From Anaerococcus obesiensis ph10 (GTDB taxonomy: Bacteria; Bacillota; Clostridia; Tissierellales; Peptoniphilaceae), in assembly GCF_000311745.1 (NCBI RefSeq), contig NZ_HE978533.1:30087-94086 (forward strand): a DNA stretch of 64,000 nt, given 5' to 3'. Each line of letters starts with the position of its first letter. The stretch's first letter is position 1. The position numbers and the translations under genes are program-made. The notes under the pieces were generated by a model that worked only from the letters and a program-made list of their open reading frames with translations, ran no database searches and was not told the DNA's origin. Positions 39,688-51,279 of this stretch are shown here, piece after piece.

Positions 39688-42368
39688 ACTTCAATACATC
39701 TAATGTTATCAATCAACTAACTCTTTTAACAGTTGTTTGTTCGACTTCATTTATTTCAATACATCAAATGTTATCAATCAACCCTATTAAAGAACTTGCT
39801 AAAAGGTGGTCTTGTACATTTCAATACATCAAATATTATCAATCAACTAATTCTAGTCTTGGTCTTATAAAAGGGCAGTTAAAATTTCAATACATCAAAT
39901 GTTATCAATCAACAGAAAGAGGCTAGGAGATACAAGGAATTGAAACTTCTATTTCAATACATCAAATGTTATCAATCAACTAAAACTGGAGTAAGCACGG
40001 CTTGGACAACTATTGGATTTCAATACATCAAATGTTATCAATCAACATTGAAAAAGCAAAAGATTTAACCCTAGCAGATTAATTTCAATACATCAAATGT
40101 TATCAATCAACTTTATAATATTATTTTTCAAATCTATATTATCTACTTATTTCAATACATCAAATGTTATCAATCAACAAATGGACAAGAAAATCAGTGT
40201 CTTCTTGTTCTTGAATTTCAATACATCAAATGTTATCAATCAACATTTAAACTTTAAAGACACAAAGTCTGGTAAATATAATTTCAATACATCAAATGTT
40301 ATCAATCAACGCTTATATACTCCAATGGAAAAATTTTTAATTGTGTAATTTCAATACATCGAATGTTATCAATCAACTAATTTTAAACATTCTGGATTTT
40401 ATTTACCAAAAAGATTTCAATACATCAAATGTTATCAATCAACGGCAAAAATGCAGCTAAAAATCTACTACAAATCATTATTTCAATACATCAAATGTTA
40501 TCAATCAACCATACTACTCATATTAGTAACTTTGCTCGTGTCAAAATTTCAATACATCAAATGTTATCAATCAACTTCTGAATTATGCAATAAAAAAGCA
40601 AAAGAATTATTATTTCAATACATCAAATGTTATCAATCAACGCTTACCAGGAAATACAAGAAAGAAGGCTATTACGTATTTCAATACATCAAATGTTATC
40701 AATCAACATTGAAAGCGCCTGTCTTTGTTCCAAGATTACTACTATTTCAATACATCAAATGTTATCAATCAACAAAAAACCGTCAACAATACCTTGTATA
40801 TTCAACATAATTTCAATACATCAAATGTTATCAATCAACATTTATATGGATGATTTTATTAACGCATCAACTTTATTTCAATACATCAAATGTTATCAAT
40901 CAACTGTTTAAAACTTTAACATCTGCTTAAAATTGAGTATTAATATTTCAATACATCAAATGTTATCAATCAACAGGCTATTATCTTTATACTAGGAGAA
41001 TGTTTAAGATATTTCAATACATCAAATGTTATCAATCAACCAGCGATTATAGTTTGAAAGATGTTTTGCGATTAAAATTTCAATACATCAAATGTTATCA
41101 ATCAACGCACTTAAAGATTTATTTAAAGCAATAGTATCTTGATTTCAATACATCAAATGTTATCAATCAACCAAGATTTTTCTTTGGATTATAGGGGCGA
41201 TTTGTTATTTCAATACATCAAATGTTATCAATCAACTGAAATTGTCCAGGACTTAAAGACTTGTTTAAAGCTAATTTCAATACATCAAATGTTATCAATC
41301 AACGGATATATTCGCAAATTGGAAGTTACATATAATAGATTTCAATACATCAAATGTTATCAATCAACTACTTTTATTGCTATTACTGTTTGGTATGGTC
41401 TTAAATTTCAATACATCAAATGTTATCAATCAACGTAAAAGTATAAGCCGTAAGCCAATAATGTAATCCTATTTCAATACATCAAATGTTATCAATCAAC
41501 AAATGCAGCATGATTAAAAGTATTAATATCATAACCATCTATTTCAATACATCAAATGTTATCAATCAACAATCTTTAAAAGACAATCCACTTACCAAAA
41601 CTTCAGATTTCAATACATCAAATGTTATCAATCAACCTCTTTTGCTAGATGAGTCTAGTCAAATTAAGAAATTTCAATACATCAAATGTTATCAATCAAC
41701 ACATAAAACATTACTTGGTTATTCTGATTCTGTTTAATTTCAATACATCAAATGTTATCAATCAACTACCTACGCCCCAAGCACCCGCTATTACTTCTTT
41801 TGATTTCAATACATCAAATGTTATCAATCAACAGAAGACTTATCTAGTAATATGATTATATGCGTTCTATTTCAATACATCAAATGTTATCAATCAACTC
41901 TGGAATAAATTAAAATATCAACAAAAAAATATGTTATTTCAATACATCAAATGTTATCAATCAACTGAGCTTAAAAAGATTAAAGATTTTACACTTTTAC
42001 TATTTCAATACATCAAATGTTATCAATCAACCCTGACCAAGAATAACCCAAGGCTGATTCACTCGTTATTTCAATACATCAAATGTTATCAATCAACGTC
42101 AAAATCTCCACTAAAAAAGCACCTCTAAACAGATTTCAATACATCAAATGTTATCAATCAACTTTTAGATAATAGAACGACTGAGGATTGTAAAGACCTA
42201 TTTCAATACATCAAATGTTATCAATCAACGGTGGATTTAGTACCACAAAAAGGAGAATGTACTTTAACATTTCAATACATCAAATGTTATCAATCAACTG
42301 TATCATCATTTTTAGTAATATCTTCTAAAATTTTTTCTATTTCAATACATCAAATGTTATCAATCAAC
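39688..42368 (-). CRISPR. CRISPR array, 41 repeats of 30 bases and 40 spacers
   Basis: The repeat on the crRNA strand (minus) reads GTTGATTGATAACATTTG then ATGTATTGAAAT; the ATTGAAAT end is the 8-base 5' handle of type I-B crRNAs. Spacers are 34-40 bases, mostly 35-37. Repeats near the left end are altered: the first (39688-39717) has two changes, the third (39818) one, and the one at 40348 one; the right-hand repeats are uniform. So the leader is on the right, next to cas2, and the left is the old trailer end. Transcription runs leftward, the same way as the cas genes. Confidence 0.98.
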
Positions 42369-42502: not shown

Positions 42503-42787
42503 TTATAAGATCAAATCTTCTTCTAATGATTTGTATTTTCCTATAGTTTCTTCTTCAAAGGATTCTTTGTTGTACATTTTTATTATTGTTACAAAGTCTT
42601 CTTCTTTTTTTATTGTTTTTTCAATTTCTCTTTTTAGAGCAATAATTTTTGACGGGCTTATTTCTCCTCTAAATACTGAATTTTGGTGGTGAGTTAAATA
42701 TTTTTTGCAAATTTTAAAGACTTTATTTACTCTTTTTTCTCCAACATCATAGAATAGAAATACATAATTGTAATTTTTCCCCATCAA
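42503..42787 (-). CDS. cas2: CRISPR-associated protein Cas2
   Basis: A 94-residue ferredoxin-fold protein with YNYVFLFYDVGEKRVNKVFKICKKY (the conserved Asp in YDV) and GEISPSKIIALKREIEKTI. With Cas1 it forms the spacer-integration complex. Its start overlaps the cas1 stop by 4 bases (ATGA), and it is the last cas gene before the leader. Confidence 0.93.
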   Translation of the reverse strand: MMGKNYNYVFLFYDVGEKRVNKVFKICKKYLTHHQNSVFRGEISPSKIIALKREIEKTIKKEEDFVTIIKMYNKESFEEETIGKYKSLEEDLIL

Positions 42788-43782
42788 TATTTCCTTTCTA
42801 ATAAATAAGGTTCGAATTCTTTGTCTTCTAGTATATATTTTATTAATTTATAGCAATCTAGTTTTATTTGTGTTTGATAGCTCACATTTCTTTTTAATTT
42901 TTCATTTTTAAATTTTGTTTCTATTCTTTTTTCAAAAGCTGCTATAAATATTTTCTTACCTTCATCATTTAAAATACAATAATTTTGCTCTTTTAAAAAA
43001 TGATCTTCTACTCTAATTTTTCTATTATTTACCAAATCAAATATTGTTTTAAATACTATTATAGGCTTGAAAGCTTCACTCATATCTAGGGAAAGAGAAA
43101 ATCTTGATTCACTTGGTTCGTGTAAATAACTTATGGCTTGATTTAAGTGAGTCCTGTAGATTGCTGTTATAGTTTTTGTGTATAAAAGTGAGTTTCCAAA
43201 TGATATTAGGGCATTTATTGGATTATCAGGAGGTCTTCTTACTCTTTTATTCAAAATAAAATCTTCATTTAGAAAATATTTGAAAGAATCGTAAAATCCT
43301 TGCCAAATTTTTCCTTCTATATATAAAACTTGTTTTATGTTATTTGATTTTTCAAGCTCATTCGGAATTTCATTTTTTAGATAATCAAGGAAAGTTTTAA
43401 CTTCTTTTTTATCATGTTTATAGTAATGATAAAGAACTTGGTAGATATTTTTCCCTATTGCTCCTACAATTTTTTTAGCTATTTCTATCCTTTTTTTATT
43501 GTATGCTTCTACTTGTTTGACTAAAAGTTTTCCACTTATATATTTTTCCCTTGGATAAAATGTTCCTGAATAGTTTCCATAATAATTAAAAAAATGTAGG
43601 ACTATATGCTTACTTGCAAGAAAATCTAATAATTTTGTATTTATTGTAGTCTCACTTAGTATGTAAAGCTCTCTTATGCTTTCTATTGGTATATAAACAT
43701 TTTTTCCATTTACTCTATAGCACAAGGAATTGTCTTTTCTTTTTATTTGTCCATCTGTTAAAAGATATTTTGTTTTTCCCAT
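42784..43782 (-). CDS. cas1: CRISPR-associated endonuclease Cas1 (type I-B)
   Basis: A 332-residue integrase subunit. The N-terminal beta domain starts KYLLTDGQIKRKDNSLCYRV. The catalytic residues are Glu in YIEGKIWQGFY, His in YLHEPSESRFSLSLDMSE, and the acidic pair in that same stretch. I chose the ATG at 43782 (MGKTKYLL) because TAGGTGGGA lies just before it; an in-frame ATG at 43803 would overlap cas4 and has no better site. It acts with Cas2 and Cas4 in spacer uptake. Confidence 0.95.
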   Translation of the reverse strand: MGKTKYLLTDGQIKRKDNSLCYRVNGKNVYIPIESIRELYILSETTINTKLLDFLASKHIVLHFFNYYGNYSGTFYPREKYISGKLLVKQVEAYNKKRIEIAKKIVGAIGKNIYQVLYHYYKHDKKEVKTFLDYLKNEIPNELEKSNNIKQVLYIEGKIWQGFYDSFKYFLNEDFILNKRVRRPPDNPINALISFGNSLLYTKTITAIYRTHLNQAISYLHEPSESRFSLSLDMSEAFKPIIVFKTIFDLVNNRKIRVEDHFLKEQNYCILNDEGKKIFIAAFEKRIETKFKNEKLKRNVSYQTQIKLDCYKLIKYILEDKEFEPYLLERKY

Positions 43783-43790
43783 ATTCCCAC

Positions 43791-44276
43791 CTAGATTTTG
43801 CAATATTCATAATAGGCACATTTGGTACATCCCTTAATTTTTTTGAATTTTGGGATTTTTTCTTTTGAAATAAATTCTTCTATTTCTTTAAGTAATTTTT
43901 CTAGTTCTTTTTCTTTTTTATCATCTAAGTCCAAATATTCTATTTTTTTACCTTTATTGTTTTCAACAAATTCTAATTTTCCTTTTTTGACTATTCCTTT
44001 TTTCTTCAATATATAAAGATAATAGTAAAGCTGCCATCTAGCAGCTTCTTTGTCTGCATCTGACTTTTTTATTTCTACTAAATATTTATCTGTAATTTTA
44101 TCAACTACTATATTGTCTATTTTTATCTCAGAATTTTTCTTGTTTTTGCTTTTATTTAGGTGGATTTCTTTTCCTATTTTTACAAGTTCACTGTTATCTT
44201 CGAAATTCAATTTATTTGCAAATAAATAACACTGCCTTTTGCAATGAAAATAATAATTTATTATTGTTCCATTCAT
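43791..44276 (-). CDS. cas4: CRISPR-associated exonuclease Cas4
   Basis: A 161-residue PD-(D/E)xK nuclease with an iron-sulfur cluster. YFHCKRQCYLFANKL gives the N-terminal Cys, and GCTKCAYYEYCKI the three C-terminal Cys. The active site is IVVDKI, VEIKKS and the QxxxY helix RWQLYYYLYIL. Cas4 trims prespacers and helps choose those beside a PAM. It overlaps cas3 by 4 bases. Confidence 0.93.
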   Translation of the reverse strand: MNGTIINYYFHCKRQCYLFANKLNFEDNSELVKIGKEIHLNKSKNKKNSEIKIDNIVVDKITDKYLVEIKKSDADKEAARWQLYYYLYILKKKGIVKKGKLEFVENNKGKKIEYLDLDDKKEKELEKLLKEIEEFISKEKIPKFKKIKGCTKCAYYEYCKI

Positions 44277-46795
44277 ATTATGTCCTCAAATTCATCATTT
44301 TCATTTTTATAGTTTAATCTTTCATTGTAAATATATTTTTCCCCATCTTCTATATAAACAAGATTTCCTATTATATCATTTGCTTTTCCAATATATTTTA
44401 CAAAATCTCTTTTTGTAATTCTATATAGAAAATCTGACATTTGAGCTTTCTTTTCTGAAAGTTTTACAATTTTTTCACTATAATTCATATCTTTATTTTC
44501 AATAAGGTTTACGTATTGATCCCAAATTTCAAATCCATTTATTTCTTTTCCATTTATCCTTAAATTTCTATTTAAAAATAATTCAATCATTTGCCTATTA
44601 TCATCAATTAATTCCATGTGTTTGGATATTTTTTCAAAATTTAATTTAATAAGGTCTTTTCCAAAATTTATATAGGCATATTCATCCCTATCATTTTTTG
44701 CTTTTTGTAATTTTAAGGCAAAATATCTAGAAAAATCTTTTGTTTCAAGATCTTTTCTTCTATCCTTATTTCTTAATGTCAAAATATCTTGGGCATTTTT
44801 ATAAATTTTCTTTTCATCTGCCATATCAAAAAAATATGCTACAGCATCATTTTTTAAAGCCGATCTTCCAATTCTTCCCAAAAATTGTTCTTCATTTTCA
44901 AGCATAGATATATCTTTGTAACCAATATCCATGTCAATATCAATACCTGCTTCTACGACCTGACTCGCAATTAATATGGTTTTTTTAATAACTTCTCCAC
45001 TTATCTGTCTGATAACTTGAGACTTTCTTCTCAAATTATCATCGCCTGTTAAAATCAAAATATTATATTGGTTAAAAAATTCCTCCTCATTTAAAATTTT
45101 AAAGAAATTTTCCGCATCTTTTTTTCTAATAAATTCAACCAATATTTTTTGATGGTTTCCTATATTTTCTTTCATGTGTTTTAAAAGATGATCATAGTCA
45201 ATCTTTCCCAAATCTAACAAATCATAGTTTATTTTGACCCTATTTTTAAATAAAGGCTCATCAAAAATTTCTCTTGGATTTTTAATTAATTTTCCTATAT
45301 TTTTCTTTTTATCATCATTTAATAAAGCTGATAAGTCAGGAAGAGTTGCTGACATTATAATTATTTTTAAATTAAAAATCTTTGCATAAATTTCCAACAT
45401 TTCTATAATTTCATTCCACAAATCTTCTCTATAAGCTTGAATTTCATCCAAAACAATGACAGAATTTGTAATTTGATAAAGACCAAATATATTTTTTCTT
45501 TTGTTTGAAAAAAGCGTATTAAACAGCCCTACATTTGATGTGATGATAAATGGAGAGTGGAGAAACTGTCTATCCAATAAAGATTTTATATAATAATCCC
45601 AATCTCTCATAAAATCATCATTGTCACTTTTTCCAATTGGAGTTATTGAATTTATAATTGAAATTTTTTCTTCAATACTGGTTTTTTTATAATATTTTAA
45701 GAGGGTATTTTTATTTTGCTCCACCAAGGTATTAAATGGATAGGCATAGATTATTTTATTAATCTGATCATTTAATAATTTGAAAGATAAATTCATAGCA
45801 GTATTAGATTTGCCAGAACCTGTAGGAGCTTCTAGGAAAAATATATTCTTATCACTTTCCTTTTCTAAATTTTTTTCTGCATTTAGAAAAATTTTTGTCC
45901 TAAGATCATTTATATTTTCTTTTTTCTCATAAGACTTGCTTTTTTGGCTTTTTCTAATATTTTTTATAAGTTTCGAATTATTATATATTTTAATAAGGTC
46001 ATTTTGGTCAATTTTTGGAAGCTTTGTCTTATATCCATTCATATAATCAGTTGTAGCATAAAAGTCAGATGAAACTAAAATAGAGTAGATTAGTCTTGTG
46101 TAGATGTATATTTCTTTTGATTTTGATTTTTTGAAATCTTTATAAGAAGAATCCATATCAAAATCATAGATTAAATCCATAATATCATTTGAAATTTCTT
46201 CAAAATCATCAAAAAATTCTTCTTTTATGTTTTCATCTTTCTTTAAATATTTTAAAGTTTTGTAAAATTTACTTGTTTCATCAATAAATAAATCAAAAAA
46301 ATTATGAATTGAATATGAAAAGTCTGATAAATCACTATGATGTCTTGAAATTACAAAGGCATTTAAAAAAATAAGATAATATAATTTTTCTTTTAATTTA
46401 TCATCAATTTTTAAGTTTCTAGTTTTTCCAACAAAAATATAAAGGTAAATAAATGATGAAAGTATAGAATGTTGACCTTCTATCCCCAAATCTGTAAGGT
46501 CTATTTCAAAGTTTTTTAATTTATTTCTTTGAAATCTAGAATTTATCTTTCCCAAATCGTGAAACAAAATTACTGAATCTATTAAATCTTTAAAATATGT
46601 ATATCCTTCCTTTTCATCGAAAATACTTAGGAAAAATCTTTCAAAGACTTTCCCCAAGTTTTTTTCTTCTAGAATTTTTTTATAATATTTAAAAGTTTTA
46701 TTTATGTGATCTTGTAATTTTTCTTTACTATCTCCAACTCCATCAATATGGGCTAGATAATTGTCAGAATTTTTAACTATAAAATCAAGTTTCAT
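44273..46795 (-). CDS. cas3: CRISPR-associated helicase-nuclease Cas3
   Basis: An 840-residue protein. The N-terminal HD nuclease domain has the metal motif VILFHDLGKINSRFQ (near residue 80) and SRHHSDLSD. The superfamily 2 helicase has Walker A EAPTGSGKSNTAMN (about 325), DEIQAYREDLW (about 447), SATLPDLS and QFLGRIGRSA. It degrades target DNA after Cascade binding. I chose the ATG at 46795 (MKLDFIVK), with AAGGAA five bases upstream, over an in-frame ATG at 46822. It overlaps cas5 by 11 bases. Confidence 0.94.
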   Translation of the reverse strand: MKLDFIVKNSDNYLAHIDGVGDSKEKLQDHINKTFKYYKKILEEKNLGKVFERFFLSIFDEKEGYTYFKDLIDSVILFHDLGKINSRFQRNKLKNFEIDLTDLGIEGQHSILSSFIYLYIFVGKTRNLKIDDKLKEKLYYLIFLNAFVISRHHSDLSDFSYSIHNFFDLFIDETSKFYKTLKYLKKDENIKEEFFDDFEEISNDIMDLIYDFDMDSSYKDFKKSKSKEIYIYTRLIYSILVSSDFYATTDYMNGYKTKLPKIDQNDLIKIYNNSKLIKNIRKSQKSKSYEKKENINDLRTKIFLNAEKNLEKESDKNIFFLEAPTGSGKSNTAMNLSFKLLNDQINKIIYAYPFNTLVEQNKNTLLKYYKKTSIEEKISIINSITPIGKSDNDDFMRDWDYYIKSLLDRQFLHSPFIITSNVGLFNTLFSNKRKNIFGLYQITNSVIVLDEIQAYREDLWNEIIEMLEIYAKIFNLKIIIMSATLPDLSALLNDDKKKNIGKLIKNPREIFDEPLFKNRVKINYDLLDLGKIDYDHLLKHMKENIGNHQKILVEFIRKKDAENFFKILNEEEFFNQYNILILTGDDNLRRKSQVIRQISGEVIKKTILIASQVVEAGIDIDMDIGYKDISMLENEEQFLGRIGRSALKNDAVAYFFDMADEKKIYKNAQDILTLRNKDRRKDLETKDFSRYFALKLQKAKNDRDEYAYINFGKDLIKLNFEKISKHMELIDDNRQMIELFLNRNLRINGKEINGFEIWDQYVNLIENKDMNYSEKIVKLSEKKAQMSDFLYRITKRDFVKYIGKANDIIGNLVYIEDGEKYIYNERLNYKNENDEFEDII

Positions 46796-47522
46796 AAATT
46801 CCTTCTTCACTGTAAAAGACAAGTTTTAAATTATTATCTAAATCTTTAAATATGACATTTTTATCTGATTTTTTTCTAACTTCTCCATTACTTGCTAATG
46901 TTTTTTTTCTTATATATCTTTCGGTGTCTTCTTCTAAGAAAAACGGAAGATTTTCTTCATATTTATAAATCTTACTTTTTAGCCTTAGTTTAAAATCTTC
47001 ATCCCAAAAAATGGAATTTATAATATTTTTATCACTTTTTTCTATATCAACAATTTCACAATCACTAATATTTGCCATGTGATCATTTGTTCCAAGATAA
47101 GGAGTAAAAATTGTTTTTTTATTTAAAATATATTCTTTTATCATTTCACTTTGGTCACTATCTAATAAAATATAAATTAGCCATGAAGGATTTTCTAGCC
47201 AAACTTGTTTTACTATTAGATTTCCACCTTCTTCATTCGATGCAAAAGCTGTAGAATTATTAAATATTTGCAACTTTTTATCAAAAATCCCATCATTTCC
47301 CTCTGAAACTATAGAAATTTTAAGATCTTTTAATTTTTTATAAAACTCAGGATATTTTTCCCTGCCTTTTTCGTTATATCCTTTGTACCCAACAATTGCT
47401 CCCAAAAGTCCTAGAAGGGCAACTCTGTGAATTTGTCCATAAGTATAATATAGATAAGTATTTACATCTGGCTGTTTGAAAAAACCTGTTTTCCCACTTA
47501 ATCTAAATCTCAAAGCTTTCAT
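46785..47522 (-). CDS. cas5: CRISPR-associated protein Cas5 (Cas5b/Cas5h)
   Basis: A 245-residue Cascade subunit starting MKALRFRLSGKTGFFKQPDVNT, with the RAMP-type glycine loop GLLGAIVGYKGY. Cas5 binds the 5' handle of the crRNA and joins the Cas7 backbone to Cas8. It follows cas7 by 1 base and is coupled to cas3. Confidence 0.92.
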   Translation of the reverse strand: MKALRFRLSGKTGFFKQPDVNTYLYYTYGQIHRVALLGLLGAIVGYKGYNEKGREKYPEFYKKLKDLKISIVSEGNDGIFDKKLQIFNNSTAFASNEEGGNLIVKQVWLENPSWLIYILLDSDQSEMIKEYILNKKTIFTPYLGTNDHMANISDCEIVDIEKSDKNIINSIFWDEDFKLRLKSKIYKYEENLPFFLEEDTERYIRKKTLASNGEVRKKSDKNVIFKDLDNNLKLVFYSEEGIYET

Positions 47523-47523
47523 A

Positions 47524-48477
47524 TTAAGCCTCGATTTTTTCTCTTGTGTATATATTATAAATTTCTATATTGTCTGGAAAATCAACCAAGTCAATTTTTT
47601 CATTATCGTAATAAATTTGAATTTTTTCTATATCATTTCTTTCTTCTATAATAGATTTTCCTGTGAAAATTATCTTATCTTTTAAGTTTTCTTCAAAATT
47701 TTTTTCAAATTCAATGTAATTTGCAAGACTTGGAAGATAAGTATCTAATTTTGTTTCAACAAACATAGAAAATTCATTGTTCGCTCCTTCTTTTGCATTC
47801 GTTGCGTATGAAGTTGCAGAATCAATTGCTGCTAATTTGAATTTTTCATAATCTTTTTCGCTATAGCCTTCTGTAACTCCTAATTTTTTGTAATCATCAT
47901 AAGCTTTTGGATTTATTACAAAAGAATAAAAATAATGAGCCTCATCTGATACAATTTTATTTCCTAAAGTAGAATTTTGAGCATCTTCTCCTGATTTACT
48001 TTTTTCTTTTGCATTAGGGTCTCTAAAAGGAGATAAAATTTGTTGATCTAGAGCCCTGCTATCTTCATATTTGTTCATCCCTTGGGAAATTTGCACAGCT
48101 CCAGTTATAGAAATATTATTTCCTTTTTCTGCAAAAGTAGCTCCAAAATTTTTTACATCTGTTGCAGAAAACAAGTTAGTCAAAATTTTTTCTGATTCAC
48201 CAGACTTTATTTCTGTATCAAAAACTTGTTCATACCTTTCTTTTAAAGTTCTAGGTATTAGATTTCCTTTATTATCTATTATGTAACTTTTTATATAAAT
48301 CACCTTCTCGCCTTGTTCAGACCATTTTTTCTTCATTGTATATTTTAAAGCCTTATCTGATCCAAAAATTTCACCAGAAGACAAAGATTTTGGAAATCCA
48401 GAAAAATCTGCATTCCAATTTGCCATCTTTGATCCTATACCAATAATTCCATAAACTCTCTTATTAAGCTCTGTCAT
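47524..48477 (-). CDS. cas7: CRISPR-associated protein Cas7 (Csh2 type)
   Basis: A 317-residue Cascade backbone protein of the Csh2 family. KRVYGIIGIGSKMANWNADFSG at the start, then NFGATFAEKGNNISITGAVQISQGMNKYED and DEAHYFYSFVINPKAYD, match the family. Several copies coat the crRNA spacer part. I chose the ATG at 48477 (MTELNKRV) because GAAGGAG inside the cas8 end lies six bases before it. It overlaps cas8 by 14 bases. Confidence 0.94.
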   Translation of the reverse strand: MTELNKRVYGIIGIGSKMANWNADFSGFPKSLSSGEIFGSDKALKYTMKKKWSEQGEKVIYIKSYIIDNKGNLIPRTLKERYEQVFDTEIKSGESEKILTNLFSATDVKNFGATFAEKGNNISITGAVQISQGMNKYEDSRALDQQILSPFRDPNAKEKSKSGEDAQNSTLGNKIVSDEAHYFYSFVINPKAYDDYKKLGVTEGYSEKDYEKFKLAAIDSATSYATNAKEGANNEFSMFVETKLDTYLPSLANYIEFEKNFEENLKDKIIFTGKSIIEERNDIEKIQIYYDNEKIDLVDFPDNIEIYNIYTREKIEA

Positions 48478-50233
48478 TTTCTTCTCCTTCACTTAGTTTT
48501 TTTCCATAAAGATATGATTCTTCTAAAAATCCTGCCATTATCCACTTATCATCAGCCTTTTCCTTTTCAAATTCATAAACAAGAATTTGGCTTACTGCCC
48601 TGTTAAATCTTACATCTTTAGTGCTAATATTGTGGGCATAAGTTACAAGCAAATGTTTTAAATTTTCAATTATCTTAGAAGTTTTTTGTTCATCCAAGAA
48701 ATTTCTAATAAAGGTTAAATTTTTATCGCTAATCTTTGAATGATTGAGCAATTTTCTCAAAACTTGTCCTAGGGCAAACAAAATTTCTTCATCACCTTCA
48801 AGAGAAATATCTCCTGCTGATTCTAATTTTCTTTTCATCTTTTCTTGAAAATCCATGTAATTTTCCTCCTTTTTTTTAAAATATTCTTTTAAAGATAAAT
48901 AATAATTAAATTGAGTAATAGCCTTGGTCTTATAATCATTTGTAAGAGAATATTTAATAGAATCTTTCAAAAGCTTATCTAAGATCCTTACAACTTCTTT
49001 ATTCTTATTATTTATTATTGCAACTTCCAGACTTTTTCCATAGTTTAAAATTATAATTTTGAAATTTAATTCTTTTATATTTAAATTATCCAAATTATAC
49101 TTATTTCTTTGGTAATAATTATAGAAAAAAACTGCATCTATTTTATTTAAAAGTATATTTTTTTCAGTAACAAGACCGTATTTCTCTTCTCTTTTAGAAA
49201 AATCATCTGCCTTAGCATTTTCTGGCAAATACTCTTCAATATATTGGTTAATTTGAATTTCTATATCATCAAAATCATTTGAATAAATATTATAATCCAA
49301 AATAGCTGCCTCTTTTTTTTCAGGATACAAGAACAATTCAAATCCTATAAAATTCTTATTTTTTTCAAAACCTATTTCTTTATTTACTGTATTAAAATAT
49401 ATTTTGTTATTTCCTCTTTTTACAGATGAAGAAAGGTAAGAAAAAAATAAATTTTGTAGCTTTGCCGTATCCATACTTATTAGATATGGTTGTTTTACTT
49501 TTCTAGATAAATTTTCCAAATAAGGCTTTTTACCATCTATTCCTAAATTATCATCAGAAACACCAAAAGTTTTTCCATTAACTTCTATATTATATTTATT
49601 CTTATTAAATAAATTGGTAAGTAAATACCTATCTTGCTCTCTTTGGTAAGCTTTTTTTGTTTTTTCTTCATCTTCATAGACAAAAAATATTTTGAAATAA
49701 TCTTTTGAGCTTGTATCAATATCAAAGATATTTTTATTATCAATATTTTCAATAAGCCACTTTTCGATTTTTTCAGCCTCATCTACATTGACGCCACCCA
49801 GTTTTTCTTCATTCTCCAAATAAAGATTTTTTGCATTTTTATCCTTATATTTTTTGAGTGGATTTTTTAAAATTGAAAAATATCTTTCTATTGCATCTTT
49901 ATTAATCTTATCTTCATAAGAATTTTCCTTGAAGAAAAAACTATAATAATTAGAACTATGGATTGACTTTTTTGAATCTATTGGTTTTTGAGTATTTATA
50001 ATGTTAGAATAAAAATCCAACTTTTTAATAAAAGAATAGTTCAATGGTTGATTTTCAATTTTCTTTTCTTTTTTGTTATATTTAATCTTAAAACTTGGAC
50101 TTACTTCCCAAGGACCTTTTTCTTTCATAGTAACAAGATAATATTTACCGTCTTTGGGAATATATCCTCTCAAAACCATATCAGGATCTTCATCCAAATT
50201 TTTTTTAAAAATCTCCAAACATTCTTCTAGCAC
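48464..50233 (-). CDS. cas8b: CRISPR-associated large subunit Cas8b (Csh1 type)
   Basis: A 589-residue large subunit of type I-B Cascade. The start (MLEECLEIFKKNLDEDPDMVL then RGYIPKDGKYYLV), the middle stretches (AFFYNYYQRNKY-like with Lys/Asn-rich loops, QPYLISMDTAKLQNLFFSYL) and the C-terminal helices (EGDEEILFALGQVLRKLLNHS) fit TM1802/Csh1 proteins. Cas8 reads the PAM and recruits Cas3. It is weakly conserved by nature; its place between cas6 and cas7 gives further support. Confidence 0.88.
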   Translation of the reverse strand: MLEECLEIFKKNLDEDPDMVLRGYIPKDGKYYLVTMKEKGPWEVSPSFKIKYNKKEKKIENQPLNYSFIKKLDFYSNIINTQKPIDSKKSIHSSNYYSFFFKENSYEDKINKDAIERYFSILKNPLKKYKDKNAKNLYLENEEKLGGVNVDEAEKIEKWLIENIDNKNIFDIDTSSKDYFKIFFVYEDEEKTKKAYQREQDRYLLTNLFNKNKYNIEVNGKTFGVSDDNLGIDGKKPYLENLSRKVKQPYLISMDTAKLQNLFFSYLSSSVKRGNNKIYFNTVNKEIGFEKNKNFIGFELFLYPEKKEAAILDYNIYSNDFDDIEIQINQYIEEYLPENAKADDFSKREEKYGLVTEKNILLNKIDAVFFYNYYQRNKYNLDNLNIKELNFKIIILNYGKSLEVAIINNKNKEVVRILDKLLKDSIKYSLTNDYKTKAITQFNYYLSLKEYFKKKEENYMDFQEKMKRKLESAGDISLEGDEEILFALGQVLRKLLNHSKISDKNLTFIRNFLDEQKTSKIIENLKHLLVTYAHNISTKDVRFNRAVSQILVYEFEKEKADDKWIMAGFLEESYLYGKKLSEGEENDRA

Positions 50234-50244
50234 ATAATCACCTC

Positions 50245-50931
50245 CTAAATTAAATATTTGTAGCCCAAAAATCCTGCCCCATAAGCTGCATTTTCGCTAA
50301 AAGTTACAGCAAGTGCAAAATAAGCTAGGTCTTGACTTCTTTTATCCATATTTATTTCAAGTTCAAGCTTATCTCCCAAAAGTTTTATGTTTTTAAATTT
50401 AAAAGCGATTGGCCCTTCATTTAAAAACTTAAGACTTGTATAAAATTTCCCCTCTTCTACATTTTCATCAATGAAAAATTTGTATTTTTTAATTAAATTG
50501 TCTGTAATTCTCTTTTCAAATTCTTCTAAAGTAAAATTATCTTTCCAATATCCAAAATCATTTTTTATTATTATAGGATTTAAGGTAAATAATTTTGAAA
50601 TCGGTGATTTTGGAATTATCCTAACATCCACAGTCAAGTTTTTGAAAACCTTATCCTTGTAATCAGAAAACCCATTTAAAATATAATTTACAAATTCTTC
50701 ATTAACTGACCTAATTCTATACTGATAAACCATATTTTTTTTGTAGAACTTTTTTATTGGATATAGATTATCGTGGCAATAGGATTTATAATTTTTTGCA
50801 TTATGCATATTTAAAAATTTTTCATTTTCTGACAAATAAGAAATTATTGATTTTGAAATGAATTCCAAAGAATCTGATGAATCAATATCTTCTAATAAAA
50901 ATGTTCTAATTTTTAGTTCGTAAACTTTCAT
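50245..50931 (-). CDS. cas6: CRISPR RNA endoribonuclease Cas6
   Basis: A 228-residue RAMP-fold nuclease. The start MKVYELKIRTFLLEDI, the middle MHNAKNYKSYCHDNLYPIKKFY and the Gly-rich end NAAYGAGFLGYKYLI follow the Cas6 pattern. It cuts the precursor within each repeat, leaving the ATTGAAAT handle. I chose the ATG at 50931 because AGAAGGTG precedes it; a longer reading frame to 51003 lacks a site and gives an unlike leader. It is the first gene of the eight-gene operon. Confidence 0.9.
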   Translation of the reverse strand: MKVYELKIRTFLLEDIDSSDSLEFISKSIISYLSENEKFLNMHNAKNYKSYCHDNLYPIKKFYKKNMVYQYRIRSVNEEFVNYILNGFSDYKDKVFKNLTVDVRIIPKSPISKLFTLNPIIIKNDFGYWKDNFTLEEFEKRITDNLIKKYKFFIDENVEEGKFYTSLKFLNEGPIAFKFKNIKLLGDKLELEINMDKRSQDLAYFALAVTFSENAAYGAGFLGYKYLI

Positions 50932-51279
50932 TTTCACCTTCTTTATTGCAAATATATTTTTAAGCTGATTAATAAAATAATAATTAAAAATTTTACATCT
51001 CACGTTAATAATTAAACTCTTATCAATTTTCTTACTATTTAAAATTCATCTAATTAATAATCAACTCTAATAGTTTTTTACCCACGATAAATTTAATAAA
51101 TCATTATAAAATTTTTAAAAAATTTCTCCCCCACACATTGTTAATTTTATATTAATGATTTATAATACCCCTAGAGATAGTATTTAAGTTTTAAAACTAT
51201 ACTCTTTTACACCATTATATTTAAATTTTTAAAAATGAGCTTATATATTTAGTGAGACTCAAAATATTTTGTTACTTGC
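50932..51279. other. Divergent intergenic region between cas6 and panD
   Basis: No gene is visible here. The sequence is AT-rich and must hold the leftward cas promoter and the rightward panD promoter. No pair of hexamers with correct spacing stands out for either. Confidence 0.5.

Follow-up and report, generated by a model that had tools for sequence, protein, structure and literature searches.

Two similar spacers in a type I-B CRISPR array of Anaerococcus obesiensis probably derive from overlapping protospacers in two diverged mobile elements

The window analyzed here, a stretch of 64,000 nucleotides from Anaerococcus obesiensis ph10, carries a CRISPR array and a set of cas genes, all of them on the minus strand:

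39688..42368, minus strand: CRISPR array, 41 repeats of 30 nt (minus-strand unit GTTGATTGATAACATTTGATGTATTGAAAT) and 40 spacers of 34-40 nt
42503..42787, minus strand: cas2 (TIGR01573)
42784..43803, minus strand: cas1, type I-B (TIGR03641)
43791..44276, minus strand: cas4 (TIGR00372)
44273..46822, minus strand: cas3, HD and helicase domains (TIGR01587 and TIGR01596)
46785..47522, minus strand: cas5b (PADLOC Cas5b, 3.7e-50)
47524..48492, minus strand: cas7b (PADLOC Cas7b, 1.9e-36)
48464..50233, minus strand: cas8b (PADLOC Cas8b, 2e-142)
50245..51003, minus strand: cas6 (PADLOC Cas6b, 1.7e-79)

The adaptation genes cas1, cas2 and cas4 (42503-44276) adjoin the array. Judged by family assignments, the set from 42503 to 51003 is a predicted complete type I-B system, in which Cas8b would act with Cas7, Cas5, Cas6 and the HD/helicase Cas3. 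NCBIfam gave no family for Cas8b, and its scores for Cas7 and Cas6 fall under the cut-off (TIGR01877 gives cas6 52.6 bits against a cut-off of 58.65). The array itself is an ordinary type I-B array. It is read on the minus strand with its leader at the cas2 side, because the repeat at the far end (39688) carries two mismatches and because the protospacers of the mapped spacers bear their 5' TCN motif that way round; spacers are numbered accordingly from the cas2 side. The AhydrL30 repeat of Anaerococcus hydrogenalis DSM 7454, as quoted in PMC3374615, is ATTTCAATACATCTAATGTTATTAATCAAC and differs from the repeat of the present array at 2 of 30 positions.

Two of the 40 spacers, numbers 17 and 19, resemble each other:

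41107..41141, minus strand: spacer 19, 35 nt, frame QDTIALNKSLS (named first in the initial annotation of this DNA)
41109..41129, minus strand: 21-nt core of spacer 19, common to spacer 17
41237..41273, minus strand: spacer 17, 37 nt, frame ALNKSLSPGQF (named second)
41251..41271, minus strand: 21-nt core of spacer 17, identical to spacer 19 at 19 of 21 positions

The initial annotation had singled out a 20-mer in each, and both are present where it placed them, with a single spacer (number 18) in between. The best ungapped match of the pair, GCTTTAAACAAGTCTTTAAGT against GCTTTAAATAAATCTTTAAGT, agrees at 19/21 positions for a score of 15 (+1/-2), the top score among the 780 spacer pairs of the array. 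Beyond the core, two of four further columns are identical; the starts of the two spacers differ by 10 nt, and their ends differ too. The second-best pair, spacers 27 and 35 (score 14), has a single difference, non-synonymous when judged by eye, and was taken as chance.

A resemblance of this size might have arisen by chance, both spacers being AT-rich and their source genes unrelated, with luck behind the coding pattern described below; this is a possible, though not a probable, explanation. Dinucleotide-shuffled arrays, which reached a score of 15 or more in only 3 of 400 cases, argue against it, but controls drawn from real DNA are kinder to it. When sets of 40 fragments were resampled, a pair scoring at least 15 occurred in 13/300 sets from the window, 11/300 from the resident prophage and 13/300 from three relatives' loci, that is, in 37/900 sets when pooled. 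Similarity by itself is thus only mildly unusual, at about 0.04 per array, and both this figure and the drop to two identical columns in four outside the core count against a common origin of the pair and suit chance. In the prophage and relatives' control pools, a handful of very high scores seem to stem from genuine repeats or from homologues.

Reading frames provide a second line of evidence, and they correct the initial annotation, in which both spacers were said to encode the peptide LKDLFKA with only synonymous changes. Its codon comparison (GAT/GAC, TTA/TTG, GCA/GCT) is formally right, but it was made on the wrong strand, and the plus frame is closed in spacer 17, which reads TGA-AAT-TGT-CCA-GGA-CTT-AAA-GAC-TTG-TTT-AAA-GCT: an in-frame stop lies five codons upstream of LKDLFKA, and no start codon precedes the motif. 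Of the six frames, only a single one, on the minus strand, is without a stop in spacer 17 as well as in spacer 19; it gives ALNKSLSPGQF for spacer 17 and QDTIALNKSLS for spacer 19, and its core differences, AAC/AAT and AAG/AAA, are synonymous in 2 of 2 cases. Third-position changes are seen on the plus strand too because the two strands share their wobble columns in the core. The proposal that LKDLFKA is read on the plus strand, and that repeated uptake reflects selection on the protein or priming at the site, can point to these third-position core differences, with GCA/GCT besides, but under the standard code the TGA and the missing start codon close its frame in spacer 17, and we regard it as very improbable.

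Chance pairs of the 19/21 class were taken between the window on one side and DNA of phages or relatives on the other; only 6 of 139 had a frame that is open in both members and makes all differences synonymous, which argues against chance. For the exact 19/21 class, the array is expected to hold 0.006 chance pairs, or 0.00025 once the coding signature is required; the product of 37/900 and 6/139, our own post hoc estimate, is about 0.002 for chance. With the coding signature added, two overlapping protospacers from diverged elements would be the better reading, at about two in three.

Direct identification of the protospacers was sought widely, the initial annotation having proposed a search of phage and prophage databases with both spacers and with the peptide. 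The search was run and found the protospacer of neither. Taken singly against 50,697 phage records, the two spacers gave weak partial matches (E 6 for spacer 17, E at least 0.4 for spacer 19), and the whole array against the same records and 72,556 plasmids gave E values of at least 0.005, with no protospacer for either spacer. In the 2.04-Mb genome of the strain (5 contigs), the best match of the 20-mer outside the array had at least 2 mismatches, and the core was not encountered at 1 mismatch in the 30 other genomes of the genus set, which comprises 31 genomes with our own included. The codon pattern occurs at 13 places outside the array in these 31 genomes, with a frame open over at least 95 codons in 2 of the 13. 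Among the candidates scored per genome, 68 of 130 family genomes match at E <=0.1 and 6 of 249 order genomes at E <=0.0005, our own being included in both counts, and neither group held a match of spacer length. The best ten family matches outside our own array all lack TCN upstream and lie in unrelated genes or without a long frame. The best order match listed, to spacer 19 (26 nt, 96%, E 1.7e-5), has TTA upstream and lies antisense to the end of a putative histidine kinase gene. Near matches of this kind, 24-26 nt at 96% to either spacer in unrelated genes of family and order, count in favor of chance resemblance.

Metagenomic collections and phage loci gave a similar result. In IMG/VR, the plain 20-mer has three matches, one identical context in three contigs, where the core agrees and the rest of spacer 19 does not, and codon-level patterns have none; in GTDB contigs, codon-level patterns have 7 matches, all in unrelated metagenome bins. 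Spacers 17 and 19 are absent at up to 7 mismatches from the prophage loci that had been retrieved by their portal, tail and polymerase proteins, the relatives' phage loci being the best 80 of 163 and the best 80 of 240 relatives. The single entry at 8 mismatches places spacer 19 in a locus (L051) that had been fetched for its similarity to the spacer. Reversed-spacer DNA controls, made from our own 40 spacers and leaving out the relatives' 140, gave in one locus set 0 matches at up to 7 mismatches, 3 at 8 and 6 at 9, and in the other set 0 at up to 8. Since 34 of our own 40 spacers are unmapped, missing protospacers for spacers 17 and 19 are the usual case and carry little information.

The peptide search was run over the fetched loci. 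On the minus strand, the best score against the best reversed control was 37 against 29 for spacer 19 and 32 against 34 for spacer 17; a composite of the two scored 35 against 33. On the plus strand, the values were 34 against 31 for spacer 19 and 42 against 33 for spacer 17. The scores of 37 and 42 stem from loci that had been fetched for DNA resemblance to the spacers. The next-best minus-strand match of spacer 19 (33) fell in an SSB gene of a prophage region in the relative G029 (L047), the only gene family to emerge from the scan. At the matching place, the genus has FTLAV(D/N)K.LS in its SSB genes, a reading that resembles TIALNKSLS; SSB is present in 31/31 genus genomes, and 20 stretches were fetched, in which the best DNA agreement at the motif was 22/35 for spacer 19 and 22/37 for spacer 17. 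SSB (PF00436) then failed as a target when the spacers were scored on a profile built from 70 SSB sequences. Spacer 19 scored 8.9, at rank 3 of 180 but below the best reversed control, which reached 10.3, and below the best of 2000 window fragments, at 15.7; spacer 17 scored -3.3, at rank 126 of 180. A third candidate spacer, number 24 of the relative G028, with IAVNKS in a like frame, scored 11 against spacer 19, no better than unrelated pairs; within 3 mismatches it has no place in the 31 genus genomes except its own array.

More was learned from the spacers that could be mapped. Six of our own 40 (numbers 4, 5, 31, 32, 37 and 39) have protospacers at up to 6 mismatches:

39783..39817, minus strand: spacer 39; phage-like region of the relative G010, 3 mismatches, TCT
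39914..39950, minus strand: spacer 37; resolvase-like gene of a prophage in G029, 2 mismatches, TCA
40245..40280, minus strand: spacer 32; IMG/VR 2811995192 and the genome G026, 1 mismatch, TCA
40311..40347, minus strand: spacer 31; 1201-aa tail gene of the resident prophage (contig C2), 3 mismatches, TCT
42032..42067, minus strand: spacer 5; exact protospacer in IMG/VR 2915066250, TCA
42098..42132, minus strand: spacer 4; IMG/VR 2915066250, 2 mismatches, TCA

Five relatives' arrays with repeats within 3 mismatches (G002, G003, G004, G028 and G029; L271-L275) contributed 140 further spacers. Out of the 180 spacers of the six arrays, 50 mapped to 18 chosen loci, a count over chosen loci and not a rate, because these loci had mostly been picked for earlier spacer matches. 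The 5' motif of the 50 protospacers is TCA in 36, TCT in 4, TCG in 3 and other in 7, so that TCN accounts for 43/50. The functional 5' motifs of the type I-B system of Clostridium pasteurianum include TTTCA and TATCT, and AATTG is accepted as well (PMC4860712). TCA and TCT are therefore shared with the present system, whose motif was derived from mapped spacers, whereas AATTG is taken by the C. pasteurianum system and not part of the motif found here.

The resident prophage is matched imperfectly by two of our own spacers. Spacer 4 meets it (C2 57068, L045) with 4 mismatches, at positions 1, 2, 3 and 8, beside TAA instead of TCN, and spacer 31 (C2 44903, L044) with mismatches at positions 3, 6 and 36, beside TCT; such differences at motif or seed may be what allows the prophage to persist. 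Spacers of other genomes also match this prophage (L044/L045), some of them exactly (spacer 13 of G003, spacer 8 of G029), with TCA upstream. Going by these matches, one phage family is recorded in arrays across several species of the genus. Runs of neighboring spacers against one family occur: spacers 4 and 5 match IMG/VR 2915066250 on one strand, 3.3 kb apart, spacers 31 and 32 match related prophages, and several runs occur in G003, G028 and G029. For work on phage-host links in this genus, the 50 mapped protospacers, the TCN motif and the phage families common to species whose repeats are nearly the same would be more useful than spacers 17 and 19.

Our preferred reading, to which we assign a probability of about 0.65, is that spacers 17 and 19 were acquired separately from overlapping protospacers, offset by 10 nt, in one coding region that two diverged mobile elements, most likely phages, have in common. 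The initial annotation had likewise assumed one gene region sampled from two diverged elements, and that part of its account is plausible at about the same figure, although unproven, neither protospacer having been found. We infer the homology of the two targets, their phage origin and the order of uptake. The target gene would read on the minus strand (..ALNKSLS..) and not as LKDLFKA. Cas1-Cas2-Cas4 would have taken each prespacer beside a 5' TCN motif, and since the spacers start 10 nt apart, each would have had its own motif. Mature crRNAs would then guide the predicted Cascade (Cas8b-Cas7-Cas5-Cas6) and Cas3 to matching phages. Laid on the spacer-19 element, spacer 17 meets mismatches at positions 2, 11 and 14, and the motif place reads CTA; a spacer-17 crRNA would thus probably act poorly on that element, and cross-protection by spacer 17 against it is doubtful. 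The orientation of the mapped protospacers counts against overlapping protospacers in an ALNKSLS gene, which they would meet in the sense orientation: relative to the covering gene, 29 of the 50 are antisense and 11 sense, with 10 lying outside any open frame of 100 aa. The same antisense majority would suit a gene on the plus strand, a point for the LKDLFKA proposal. The pair is in itself a small example of two spacers hinting at an unseen coding sequence and at its reading frame.

What the initial annotation built upon the pair, namely selection on the target protein and recurrent uptake at one site, has little to stand on. Third-position differences are typical of any two diverged coding sequences and do not speak for selection, and starts 10 nt apart imply cuts at different positions, not uptake at the same site. 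Random placement would suffice for one overlap. In a simulation, 40 spacers were drawn from the TCN sites of a 34-kb stretch of the resident prophage, with the motifs weighted as observed, and any pair that shared at least 20 nt at an offset above 0 was counted as overlapping. The mean number of overlapping pairs per 40 spacers was 0.70, 0.36, 0.17 and 0.09 for 1, 2, 4 and 8 phage families, respectively. For an array of 40 spacers, a single overlap is in keeping with this range of 0.09-0.70, so that neither selection on the target, nor priming, nor recurrent uptake at one site needs to be invoked; this holds against the LKDLFKA proposal as well, even though the adjacent spacers 4/5 and 31/32, each pair matching one phage family, speak in its favor.

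Priming deserves a separate word. Spacer 17 might have been taken because the older spacer 19 weakly recognized a diverged relative of its phage, in which case the array would record escape and re-immunization at a single run of codons, no more than 10 nt apart. We consider this improbable. The runs of neighboring spacers against one family fit priming, and they agree equally well with a common phage family infecting again and again.

Duplication of one spacer within the array, followed by mutation, would also yield two similar spacers. Spacer duplication copies whole repeat-spacer units, and spacers 17 and 19 are offset by 10 nt with different ends, which makes this origin most improbable, despite a pair of near-duplicate neighbors in a relative. 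In that relative (G003, L273), spacers 33 and 34 are the same over 34 nt, with lengths of 36 and 34 nt, and represent either repeated uptake of one protospacer or duplication and trimming.

Overlapping pairs do exist in the genus, which weighs against chance as the source of spacers 17 and 19. Only 2 of 12,892 cross-array spacer pairs score at least 15, and one of the two is a proven overlap: spacer 11 of G003 and spacer 15 of G028 have 26 identical nt in common, and their protospacers in 2915066250 lie 9-10 nt apart. In Sulfolobus, too, acquisition from pMGB1 yielded different spacers whose source stretches in a single invader overlap (PMC4390879). That case is crenarchaeal, has a CCN motif and involves a single invader, whereas two diverged elements are proposed here (PMC4390879). 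The within-array counterpart is found in G002 (L272), where spacers 1 and 8 are identical at 27 of 29 positions. One frame per strand is open in both, and both differences are synonymous; by this comparison, spacers 1 and 8 are a clearer case of what the initial annotation described than spacers 17 and 19.
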